Origin: a virus
DNA: 39,720 bases
IMG/VR virus record: IMGVR_UViG_3300047557_001962
Coordinates: 1-39,720 of that record
Strand: one strand, 5' to 3'
Positions 34 to 39,601 of the stretch are shown one piece after another. Under the pieces are notes generated by a model. That model saw only the letters and a program-made list of their open reading frames with translations. It was not told the origin of the DNA and made no database searches. The position numbers were made by a program, and so were the translations under genes. How positions within the stretch are numbered: the stretch's first letter is position 1; each line of letters begins with the position of its first letter.

Positions 34-507
34 CTACTTTTCCTCAGTTAGCAACTGTGGTTTGTAAAAGTTTAGCTCTTCACCGATTTCAATCTCACGA
101 GGTTTCTTGTGATCTGGAATTACATTCTCTAAAGCGATACGTAAAATACCATCTTTGATCTCTGCACCACGTACTTCTACAGTATCAGCCAAACGAATTG
201 ATTTCAGAAAATCTCTTGTACCAATTCCTTTGTGAAGATACTCGGTGCCTTCATCTTCATGTGGGTTTTTTGTACCTCGAATCTCCAACACTCCATCAAC
301 AATTTTGACAGTAATCTCTTTCTTGTTAAAGCCAGCAACAGCAAGCTCAACAAGATACTTGTTGTCATCTAGTTTTACGATATTGTGTGGTGGATATGTT
401 TGTCTTGTTTGAGTTGACGTATCGTTCAAGATTTGTTCGATTTCACCAAAGAAACGGTCGAAACCAATAGTGGAAGGCCATAGTGGCCCAATTGACAATC
501 GTGTCAT
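34..507 (-). CDS. hsp20: Small heat shock protein, Hsp20/alpha-crystallin family
   Basis: 157-aa ATP-independent holdase chaperone. The N-terminus resembles IbpA-type proteins (SIGPLWPSTIGFDRFF), followed by an alpha-crystallin beta-sandwich with the VELAVAGFNKKEI and GVLEIRG segments and a GILRIALE strand near the end of the domain. The ATG at 507 is chosen because AAGGAG lies 7 nt upstream (515-520); an in-frame extension to 531 has no such site. hsp20 genes are common in marine T4-like phages, where they are thought to help virion protein folding, although that role is inferred. The gene is preceded by a ~108-nt structured leader with its own late promoter motif and is closed by a terminator, so it looks like a separately controlled unit. 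Confidence 0.93.
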   Translation of the reverse strand: MTRLSIGPLWPSTIGFDRFFGEIEQILNDTSTQTRQTYPPHNIVKLDDNKYLVELAVAGFNKKEITVKIVDGVLEIRGTKNPHEDEGTEYLHKGIGTRDFLKSIRLADTVEVRGAEIKDGILRIALENVIPDHKKPREIEIGEELNFYKPQLLTEEK

Positions 508-615
508 AGTTTTTCTCCTTAAATTAAGCAAGATTAATAATGTTCACTACCCCGAAGGCATAGTGTGGAGGTTTTTAGACTGGTTACCTCCGCCAGTCTC
601 CCCATCCCGAGGGAT
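508..615 (-). promoter_or_regulatory. Structured 5' leader of hsp20 with ROSE-like RNA thermometer
   Basis: If transcription starts about 615 (see the GATAAATA motif), the leader is ~108 nt with four foldable parts: a small AUCC/GGAU hairpin (615-604); an AGACUGG/CCAGUCU hairpin (599-593 with 583-577); a C(UUCG)G-capped hairpin with CACUA/UAGUG arms (565-545); and a 3' hairpin that buries the ribosome site. In the last, UUGCUUA (531-525) pairs with UAAGGAG (521-515) across an AUU loop. The pairs are U.G, U-A, G.G mismatch, C-G, U-A, U-A, A-U. UUGCU opposite AGGA with one G.G mismatch is the hallmark of ROSE thermometers, which control bacterial small heat shock genes. The structure is read by eye and not energy-calculated. 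Confidence 0.6.
567..599 (-). promoter_or_regulatory. Potential H-type pseudoknot or bistable switch in hsp20 leader
   Basis: The loop of the AGACUGG/CCAGUCU hairpin contains GGAGGU (591-586), which is perfectly complementary to ACCUCC (572-567) just downstream. The two helices (7 bp and 6 bp) could coexist as a compact H-type pseudoknot with a 1-nt first loop (592), AA between the helices (585-584) and an AAAA third loop (576-573). Alternatively they could compete as two states. Function is unknown. Confidence 0.45.
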
Positions 616-619
616 AGAA

Positions 620-1054
620 TTATTTATCATGAATCACTAATAAGATACCAGCTTCAGAAAACATTGCTTGTGTAACATCCCAGTTCATGTCTGGTCGATC
701 GTCTACAGGTCGCCTAGTAACAATACGTTTTATACCACGTTGTATAATTGATTTAGCACATTCATTACATGGAAAGAGTGAGGAGTATAATGTACACCCA
801 CTTACATCCATATGGGCATTGTCAAGAGCATTTCGCTCTGCGTGGGATACAAATTTGTACTTTGTAGTCCTATCATTATAGCGAGAAGCAGTGTCTTTAA
901 CACCTCTAGGAAAACCATTATAACCAACAGCCAGAATATGCTTTTTTGCATTTACAATTACCGATCCAACTTTCGTAGAGGGGTCTTTCGACCAATTACT
1001 AATATGTTCAGCTAGATTGAGAAACCGTTTGTCCCACTCTAACTGAGTACTCAT
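620..1054 (-). CDS. cd: dCMP deaminase
   Basis: 144-aa zinc enzyme converting dCMP to dUMP, the precursor for dTMP synthesis. The cytidine-deaminase signature is complete: HAE at residues 71-73 (zinc ligand and catalytic Glu) and PCNEC at 95-99 (two zinc cysteines). The length is somewhat shorter than T4 Cd. The start overlaps the stop of the upstream 61-aa gene in an ATGA arrangement, with a weak GTGAG ribosome site. Together with the dCTP deaminase/dUTPase-like gene at 4952-5443 it would feed thymidylate production for this AT-rich genome. Confidence 0.95.
   Translation of the reverse strand: MSTQLEWDKRFLNLAEHISNWSKDPSTKVGSVIVNAKKHILAVGYNGFPRGVKDTASRYNDRTTKYKFVSHAERNALDNAHMDVSGCTLYSSLFPCNECAKSIIQRGIKRIVTRRPVDDRPDMNWDVTQAMFSEAGILLVIHDK
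621..628 (-). promoter_or_regulatory. Late promoter motif GATAAATA upstream of hsp20
   Basis: GATAAATA matches the NATAAATA late-promoter form described for marine T4-like phages, which is recognised by the gp55 sigma factor. It overlaps the stop codon of the dCMP deaminase gene. The predicted start is ~615, giving the long hsp20 leader. The assignment rests on motif and position only. Confidence 0.5.
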
Positions 1055-35296: not shown

Positions 35297-36361
35297 TTAT
35301 GGTAAGTCAGGAGATGCGATTGCTATGTTGTGGTAGGCTCCAGATGATACTTGTTTCCAGTTTGTTAATAATCCTATTTGAATAGGACTTGATCTTGTAG
35401 TAGTGACACCTATCTGACCAAACTGGCTATCTCCGCATCCCCAGAGTGTACCATCTGTTTTAACAGCCGTCATTTGATAACCGTCCCCTCCAACCTCAAC
35501 AAGCTTCCAGTTACTCAATGATCCTACTTGAACAGGACTTGACCTACTCACTATATCACTAAGACCAAGCTGACCATTTGTATTTACTCCCCACGTCCAA
35601 AGCCTTCCATTTATGTCGATGGCTGCTGTTGAATCAATTCCCGCTGATACCATTTTCCAATTTATTAATGATCCTACTTGAACAGGACTTGACCTATGCA
35701 ATCTATCACTAAGACCAAGCTGACCATTTGTATTTATTCCCCATGCCCAAAGCGTTCCATCTGTCTTGATAGCTACTGTATGATAGGCTCCTACCGATAC
35801 CATTTTCCAATTTATTAATGATCCAACTTGAACAGGACTTGACCTATCAGTTCTATCGTCAAGCCCCAACCCGCCAAAAAAATTTTCTCCCCATATCCAA
35901 AGTGTTCCGTCTGTCTTGATAGCTGCTGTATGATAGGATCCAGTCGATACCATTTTCCAATTGGTGAGTGATCCTACTTGAACAGGACTCGATCTGTGAA
36001 CAATGTCACCAACTCCCAGCTGACCTTGATCGTTCAATCCCCACATCCAAAGAGTTTGATCTGTTTTGATAGCTGCTGTTGTATCTCGCCCAGCTGATAC
36101 AAGAGTCCAATTTGTTAGCGATCCTACCTGAACTGGGCTAGATCTAGAAGTTATACTACCGATTCCAAGTTGACCGGAAGCATTACTTCCCCACACCCAA
36201 AGCCTTCCATTCGTATCAATAGCTGTACTATGAAGACTTCCCGCACTCACTTGCTTCCATTTGGTTAATGTTCCTATTTGAGTTGGACTTGACCTATTAG
36301 TGGCAACACTAATATTGAGTCCAAGCTGTCCATCCGAGTTATATCCGACAGAATACAACCC
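35297..36361 (-). repeat. Tandem ~150-bp RCC1 blade repeats (protein 1)
   Basis: Successive blades repeat with a 150-bp period and stretches of exact identity: 35555-35586 equals 35705-35736 (32 bp), and 35651-35674 equals 35801-35824 (24 bp). The core that reads aacaggacttgacct on the plus strand recurs in most blades here and in the other two propeller genes. Such near-identical direct repeats could recombine. Confidence 0.85.
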
Positions 36362-36469
36362 AGCTTCGATAAATAAATCTTTGGCAACAAACATATCCTC
36401 AAAATCAACAACCGTTGAACTTGCTGATCCGTTTGAATTGAGTATCGAAAATTTGTATCCTGATGACAT
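35297..36469 (-). CDS. Seven-repeat RCC1-type beta-propeller protein 1 (probable tail adhesin)
   Basis: 390 aa. Residues 1-36 are a short N-terminal module with DFEDMFVAKDLFIEA (22-36). Seven ~50-residue RCC1 repeats of the form (T/R)LWxWGxNxxGQLGL..RSSPVQVGSLTNWK.VS.G..H..AI follow, enough for one closed seven-bladed propeller. The last blade is slightly shorter and the first lacks the LW start. RCC1-type propellers are best known from eukaryotes but also occur in bacterial and phage surface proteins; a receptor-binding role is inferred. Neighbouring paralogues at 36513 and 38423 suggest duplication. Ribosome site weak (AGAAG). Confidence 0.8.
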   Translation of the reverse strand: MSSGYKFSILNSNGSASSTVVDFEDMFVAKDLFIEAGLYSVGYNSDGQLGLNISVATNRSSPTQIGTLTKWKQVSAGSLHSTAIDTNGRLWVWGSNASGQLGIGSITSRSSPVQVGSLTNWTLVSAGRDTTAAIKTDQTLWMWGLNDQGQLGVGDIVHRSSPVQVGSLTNWKMVSTGSYHTAAIKTDGTLWIWGENFFGGLGLDDRTDRSSPVQVGSLINWKMVSVGAYHTVAIKTDGTLWAWGINTNGQLGLSDRLHRSSPVQVGSLINWKMVSAGIDSTAAIDINGRLWTWGVNTNGQLGLSDIVSRSSPVQVGSLSNWKLVEVGGDGYQMTAVKTDGTLWGCGDSQFGQIGVTTTRSSPIQIGLLTNWKQVSSGAYHNIAIASPDLP

Positions 36470-38422: not shown

Positions 38423-39601
38423 CTATTCTGTATATTGTATGGCAAAACCACTATTAAAATTGCCGCCAACATATTTCCAATTAGTAAGTGATCCTATTTG
38501 AACAGGACTTGACCTATGAACAGTATCATTAAGACCTAATTGACCACTTCCTGATGAATTTTCTCCCCATGCCCATAATGTACCATCCGTTTTGACAGCA
38601 AGGAGTGATTTCGTATTTTGTAATGTTGCTACTTGCTTCCAGTTGGTGAGTGATCCTACTTGAACAGGACTTGACCTGTGAACACGATCACTAAGACCAA
38701 GTTGACCTTGATCGTTCAATCCCCATGTCCACAACTTACCATCAGCTGTTATAGCTGCCATGCCATCACTTTGAAAACCAATACTCTTCCAATTCGTCAA
38801 TGTTCCCACTTGAGTTGGACTTGACCTATGAGCAACGGTTCCAATACCTAATTGGCCTCTAGCGTTATCCCCCCATGTCCATAATGTACCATCTAATCTT
38901 ATAGCCGCTGTGGAGTTTCCACAACACGCCACCTGCTTCCAATCAGTTAGTGATCCTATTTGGACTGGGCTACTCCTATCCACGATCGTGCCATCAAAGA
39001 AAGTAGGTCCAACTTGGCCAAGATGGTTTCTTCCCCATCCCCATAACGTACCATCTTGTTTTATTGCCATACAATGAAAATTGCCACATGCTACTTGCTT
39101 CCAGTCTGTACCTGTTCCAACTTGAACTGGACTAGATCTATGTGCTATACTATTATTACCAATCTGACCATAATCACCTCGTCCCCATACCCACAAGGTA
39201 CCGTTATCCCGTACTGCAGCTACAAAATTACTACCACCAGCAACATCCTTCCATGATGTCAATGTTCCAACCTGTACAGGACTTGATCTTGTTGTAGTAT
39301 TATTCTGACCAAGCGCTCCATAAACATTTGCACCCCACATCCACAAAGTTCCATCAGTTCTTAAAGCTGCAGCTGCATCCTCAAGCCCTTCCACCTTTCG
39401 CCACGTAAGCAAACTTCCAAATTGTACTGGACTTGACCTATGGGTTGTATTATTGAGACCTAATTGGCCATTAGTGTTTTTCCCCCATGCCCACATGGCA
39501 CTACCAACATACCGATCGACAAGCCACGCATCTGTGATAAACTTATCATCTAAGTCTACTTGACCAAATATGGGATCATCTGTTAAATAATTTGTTGTCA
39601 T
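38423..39601 (-). CDS. Seven-repeat RCC1-type beta-propeller protein 3
   Basis: 392 aa. The N-terminal module contains DLDDKFITDAWLVDRY (16-31), then seven RCC1 repeats beginning AMWAWGKNTNGQLGL (residue 35) and ending GSLTNWKYVGGNFNSGFAI. One blade (TLWGWGRNHLGQVG) carries a small insertion (PTFFDGTIV). The ribosome site is weak; a 33-codon ORF ends 3 nt upstream, so translation may be coupled to it. A perfect late promoter lies ahead of that ORF. Confidence 0.8.
   Translation of the reverse strand: MTTNYLTDDPIFGQVDLDDKFITDAWLVDRYVGSAMWAWGKNTNGQLGLNNTTHRSSPVQFGSLLTWRKVEGLEDAAAALRTDGTLWMWGANVYGALGQNNTTTRSSPVQVGTLTSWKDVAGGSNFVAAVRDNGTLWVWGRGDYGQIGNNSIAHRSSPVQVGTGTDWKQVACGNFHCMAIKQDGTLWGWGRNHLGQVGPTFFDGTIVDRSSPVQIGSLTDWKQVACCGNSTAAIRLDGTLWTWGDNARGQLGIGTVAHRSSPTQVGTLTNWKSIGFQSDGMAAITADGKLWTWGLNDQGQLGLSDRVHRSSPVQVGSLTNWKQVATLQNTKSLLAVKTDGTLWAWGENSSGSGQLGLNDTVHRSSPVQIGSLTNWKYVGGNFNSGFAIQYTE

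Follow-up and report, generated by a model that had tools for sequence, protein, structure and literature searches.

Does the leader of a small heat-shock gene carried by a virus act as an RNA thermometer of the ROSE kind? The question is raised by a 39,720-nt stretch of DNA (positions 1 to 39,720 of IMG/VR record IMGVR_UViG_3300047557_001962), hereafter the window, which is part of a T4-like myovirus with genes for the gp23 capsid, gp20 portal and gp18-type sheath proteins, terminase, UvsW and clamp loader. A sequence-only reading had proposed that a ROSE-like hairpin masks the Shine-Dalgarno (SD) sequence of hsp20 in this window. In our analysis the leader is best explained as a short two-hairpin thermometer of the ROSE family working by the proposed mechanism, with a probability of roughly 0.8.

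Structure of the hsp20 leader

The gene that the element would control lies on the minus strand (34..507, start codon ATG at 507-505), as do all the leader features described below. It encodes a protein of 157 amino acids, and a Pfam HSP20 match (PF00011, E 4.5e-17) directly 3′ of the leader bears out that this is a small heat-shock gene. A similarity search with the DNA of the region against phage records gave no match. Elsewhere in the window, two proteins (35297-36469 and 38423-39601) matched PHROGs of RCC1-like repeat proteins; sharing identical PHROG families, they may be paralogues.

Hairpin 2, or the SD hairpin (UCUU[G]CUUA-AUU-UAAGGAGA, 514..533), is recognized by folding, by conservation and by a match to the covariance model R1 described below. 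Its arms, UCUUGCUUA (533-525) and UAAGGAGA (521-514), enclose a 3-nt loop, AUU, and the SD sequence AAGGAG (515..520), 7 nt from the ATG, is located entirely within it. The pairs are U533-A514, C532-G515, U531-A516, U530.G517, C528-G518, U527-A519, U526-A520 and A525-U521, with G529 bulged, and the U(U/C)GCU signature of ROSE appears as UUGCU (531-527) opposite AGGA (519-516). The sequence-only reading had recognized this signature against the SD, of which both the U and the C forms occur among phages, and its positions for UUGCUUA (531-525), UAAGGAG (521-515) and the ATG, as well as its 7-nt gap between SD and ATG, proved exact. Masking of the SD by a hairpin also stood, but the seven-by-seven helix with a G529-G517 mismatch has less support: the element spans 533-514, and the register with a bulged G529 is preferred because RNAfold picks it and because compensatory changes in phages S-TIM5 and S-MbCM7 fit the bulge alone.

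Upstream of the SD hairpin stands hairpin 1 (CACUAU[G]CC-UUCG-GG-GUAGUG, 545..565), also with a bulged G, in the position of hairpin I of the Rfam family ROSE_3. Its general form is [stem]-Y-[G]-C-C-loop-G-G-G-[stem], and it is supported by the R1 match, by its core and by covariation. A bulged-G core, Y-[G]-C-Y opposite R-G-G, is common to the hairpins at 565-545 and 533-514 and to the ROSE_3 consensus, hairpin 1 being stable. Further 5′, an extra hairpin predicted by folding (UAUCCCUCGGGAUGG, 603..616) lies outside the R1 match and is window-specific as far as seen. Between the two, a possible H-type pseudoknot (567..598) was read from the sequence, combining GACUGG/CCAGUC with a pairing of the loop GGAGGU with ACCUCC (572-567). 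Its nested half folds at -9.5 kcal/mol, and a search of viral contigs for exact copies of the putative pseudoknot at 598-567 found none.

The leader is preceded by ATAAATA (621..627), a box resembling T4-type late promoters. ATAAATA has 13 copies in the window, 11 of them in the orientation of the genes and 2 in the reverse; most stand immediately 5′ of structural genes, as is expected of such promoters. Of 66 phage leaders, 44 have the same box within 40 nt 5′ of hairpin 1, whereas only 4.4% of shuffles do, and the spacing is often just 3-5 nt; in the window the box is more distant because the extra structure intervenes. Transcription of hsp20 would therefore start near 615 and give a leader of about 108 nt, so that the multi-hairpin leader of the sequence-only reading is confirmed, its length of about 108 nt holding provided that transcription begins from the box at 627-621. 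In three other loci (L054, L056 and L058), a sigma32-like promoter (CTTGAAA...CCCATATAA in L056 and L058) lies together with a TATAAATA late box 5′ of the element.

Hairpin 2 is weak in models. At 37 °C its predicted energy is -2.2 kcal/mol (z -0.67), a value that 45 of 200 shuffles match, and at 25 °C it is -4.2 kcal/mol; modelled hairpin energies reach about -5 to -6 kcal/mol at 15-20 °C, values that we would guess to suit cool-water hosts. Since -2.2 kcal/mol at 37 °C falls short of the -4.1 to -7.6 kcal/mol reported for Pseudomonas ROSE hairpins (PMC3669281), hairpin 2 of the window may be leaky. For the local hairpin the model opens the SD only gradually with warming, from 0.03 at 15 °C through 0.14 at 37 °C to 0.33 at 50 °C. 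Nearest-neighbour folding is uninformative on thermal opening of the SD, because it keeps even the ROSE_3 consensus closed at 50 °C; for this reason, and with hsp20 ranking only fifth among 29 window genes in predicted SD occlusion at 15 °C, folding energy and predicted SD accessibility were dropped as proof.

Conservation in front of phage chaperone genes

The sequence-only reading had staked itself on conservation of the UUGCU/AGGA pairing in related phages, and this pairing is indeed widely kept. Among 92 non-redundant phage chaperone leaders (44 of hsp20 and 48 of dnaK), which were selected by protein alone, the UYGCU/AGGA hairpin with its bulge was parsed in 89, including L310, which is probably mis-anchored, and L309, which lacks the GCU motif. 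All 89 form the five core pairs, with loops mostly of 3-6 nt; 88 have a bulged G and one a bulged A, and the base 5′ of the bulge is U in 69 and C in 20, corresponding to the Y of the ROSE signature. The hairpin or a close variant was also present in 15 of 15 leaders from phage records, which cover pelagiphages, cyanophages, the methylophage Melnitz and jumbo phages of Sinorhizobium and Agrobacterium. Natural variants include L292 (dnaK), with a bulged A for G, and L309-L316 (hsp20), with GUCU for UGCU opposite an extended SD, AGGAGGUU. Hairpin 2 is otherwise near-invariant and, because the SD is fixed, almost without covariation; the two clear compensatory cases are S-TIM5, CCAC[G]CUU/AAGGUGG, and S-MbCM7, GUC[G]CUU/AAGGAC.

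Both hairpins were captured together in R1. When 42 mixed leaders were aligned with MAFFT, loops and hairpin arms fell out of register; this alignment was rejected, and R1 was built from a gap-free seed of ten other phages of equal geometry, the window being excluded. In the window, cmsearch with R1 gave a single match, 566-514, covering both hairpins (E 1.9e-8), and the runner-up with filters off had E 0.79. Over 41 phage records (about 6.7 Mb), R1 matched 46 places at E <= 0.01, which by coordinates are hsp20 or dnaK leaders (G006:291271 is presumed to be a dnaK copy on this ground) save four that lie 5′ of small helical ORFs and whose contigs had been included because the motif was present. 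These ORFs, of about 71-90 amino acids and without a Pfam family, are found at L081 2809-2826 (G024:8446), L343 (G022), L409 (G023) and L357 (G025). They looked phasin-like by eye, an identity that was given up as Pfam gave it no support.

Covariation in hairpin 1 appears strong. Of 251 unique leaders, 206 contain its strict core, whereas only 4.1% of dinucleotide shuffles do, and a fifth outer pair, which the search does not demand, is formed in 182 of these 206, where column composition would predict 40%. Both sides have changed in 8 of its 9 pairs in a model-fitted alignment, which leans towards the model, and over the whole structure the double-change cells number 305 against 98 in shuffles, with the same bias of a fitted alignment.

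A blind, protein-independent scan of 2.9 million viral contigs approached the element from the motif side, downstream ATG genes being identified by blastp. For CTTGCTTA-N-AAGGAGA, 103 of the 110 downstream ATG genes among the matches listed were chaperone genes (99 hsp20 and 4 dnaK), and some of the others were interrupted by contig ends. The CTCGCTT form preceded hsp20 in 87 of 106 downstream ATG genes among the matches listed, whereas the scrambled motif CTTCGTTA preceded chaperones in 0 of 36 ATG genes among the matches listed from the same contigs. In many freshwater T4-like phages, hsp20 comes after dnaK and both genes have a two-hairpin element of their own (L088, 750-769 and 2721-2739; L196; L214-L293), and where a second element follows dnaK, it precedes hsp20 in 39 of 40 phage loci.

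The sequence-only reading had suggested a check with the Rfam ROSE models, and its outcome was divided. The window itself matched nothing in Rfam at the gathering cut-off and gave no match to ROSE_3 (RF02523) at E <= 10, and the classical families (ROSE1 and the E. coli ibpA type) gave no Rfam match. ROSE_3 was the top library match for related phage leaders (35.1 bits, E 1.8e-4; 34.1 bits, E 3.2e-4) and aligned over its full length (1-69), including both hairpins, to four of them. Its nine top matches in 37 records are all chaperone leaders, the maximum being 38.9 bits, and when 65.6 kb of dnaK loci were compared with Rfam, ROSE_3 was the sole family to match at E <= 1, in one hsp20 and one dnaK leader. 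The best phage matches of ROSE_3 are thus leaders of the predicted kind, but the curated cut-off of 43 bits was attained by none of the phage or sampled bacterial leaders. Judged by the homology of its relatives, the phage element is of the ROSE kind and stands outside the present Rfam boundary; the link of the window to ROSE_3 is indirect, running through R1, by which it joins the matched phage leaders.

Origin, mechanism and competing explanations

Bacterial relatives were found by a motif scan of bacterial genomes (42 hsp20 and 5 dnaK among 73), a search by protein pattern having found none, and R1 gave 43 matches in bacterial loci. The hsp20 genes of SAR11, SAR86 and Polynucleobacter carry the same element, which therefore looks host-shared; phages probably share it with, or acquired it from, hosts whose own hsp20 genes employ it. 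Copies in SAR86, Polynucleobacter and Micavibrio lie amid ordinary chromosomal genes, the Micavibrio dnaK having a DnaJ-like neighbour, and many SAR11 leaders contain CTTGTAAT...CCCATCT, sigma32-like by eye. The hsp20 and dnaK elements of SAR11, SAR86, Polynucleobacter and Micavibrio (L565, L568, L574, L591, L601, L622 and others) fall below the Rfam ROSE cut-offs, and a wider branch of ROSE appears to be absent from the Rfam listing. At the level of sequence and predicted pairing, the comparisons show that numerous phages keep the pair of hairpins before hsp20 or dnaK, and that this pair is homologous to the short ROSE elements of bacteria.

In the thermometer reading, the hsp20 message would be made from the T4-type late promoter. 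At the normal temperature of the host, hairpin 2 would keep the SD masked and little Hsp20 would be produced; upon warming, this AU-rich, bulged hairpin would open and allow ribosome entry, while hairpin 1 would remain folded and protect or order the 5′ end.

The hairpins might instead be a protein-binding site, for example for self-repression by Hsp20, so that the RNA is not the direct sensor. Such self-repression through the ibpA 5′ UTR is known for IbpA of E. coli (PMC10474464), and the bulged-G core found in both hairpins exceeds what stability alone needs. The element, however, also stands before dnaK, often alongside an hsp20 copy in one phage, which simple self-repression does not predict, and since the E. 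coli leader combines both mechanisms, protein binding could be added to thermal control and need not be an alternative to it. As the sole explanation we consider it unlikely. An equally improbable view is that the element was merely inherited with the coding region of a host hsp20 and serves as a strong ribosome site or 5′ stabilizer, with little or no thermal control. Its presence in hosts, the weakness of hairpin 2 and the closeness of hairpin 1 to the predicted 5′ end would fit this, but the UYGCU arm, the bulged G and the outer pairs, all needless for a plain ribosome site, are kept across proteins of 35-60% identity and across hsp20 and dnaK, and SD-masking arms without a use should decay. 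Chance complementarity in front of a strong SD, to which a hairpin energy no better than that of shuffles and the fact that TTGCTTAA by itself is not rare would lend themselves, is refuted for practical purposes by the phage-wide conservation, the gene specificity against the scrambled control and the uniqueness of the R1 match in the window.

With the thermometer retained, aquatic phages that carry the element probably make the output of their chaperones depend on temperature. T4-like cyanophages are considered to have hsp20 as one of their core genes; a conserved predicted thermometer suggests which signal the phage gene answers, and it makes the reason for keeping the gene testable in isolates with known hosts, such as S-PM2, Syn19, HTVC008M and Melnitz. 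It would also bear on the response of marine infections to warming. We regard as evenly balanced a broader reading, in which T4-like phages of aquatic habitats have a small heat-shock regulon: hsp20, dnaK and several small helical proteins would each stand under a ROSE-type thermometer beside a late promoter, and chaperones for virion assembly would be translated mainly in warm infected cells. ROSE would in that case extend beyond bacteria and beyond small heat-shock genes.

Comparison with known RNA thermometers

Phage RNA thermometers are known in lambda cIII, in blyA of SP-beta (a fourU element) and, as a sigma70 thermometer, in a gut phage (PMC11182007, PMC4166951); a 2024 paper names the first two as earlier cases and adds the third. 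These resemble the present element in being phage-borne RNA structures at a ribosome site, but differ in architecture and gene: none is a ROSE element, none governs a chaperone, and cIII responds in the opposite direction. The sequence-only reading knew of no described phage-encoded ROSE element, and none was found by us in the open PMC literature either, a search that took in no bioRxiv preprints and only a minority of subscription journals. The present element would add the ROSE class to the few thermometers named in 2024 and extend ROSE to dnaK.

With classical ROSE (ROSE1 of Bradyrhizobium hspA; E. coli ibpA), which represses by masking the SD, the phage element shares U(U/C)GCU against the SD, the bulged G, the small heat-shock gene and, as predicted, a masked SD. 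Classical elements have three to four hairpins (PMC3669281), whereas the conserved phage element has two, plus the window-specific upstream structure; ROSE leaders in general have two to four, the 5′ ones stable, and the window with hairpin 1 and that upstream structure agrees with this pattern.

The closest counterpart is ROSE_3 of Pseudomonas ibpA, whose two-hairpin elements are proven thermometers (PMC3669281). In both there are two hairpins in front of a small heat-shock gene, hairpin 1 having the core AUGCC...GGGU and hairpin 2 holding the SD opposite U(U/C)GCU with a bulged G. Unlike it, the phage hairpin 2 is AU-rich and weaker, and while ROSE_3 follows a sigma32 promoter, phage copies often lie downstream of a T4-type late box. 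What appears to be new is a ROSE-like element that is borne by phages, stands before dnaK besides hsp20, and is placed beside a T4-type late promoter.
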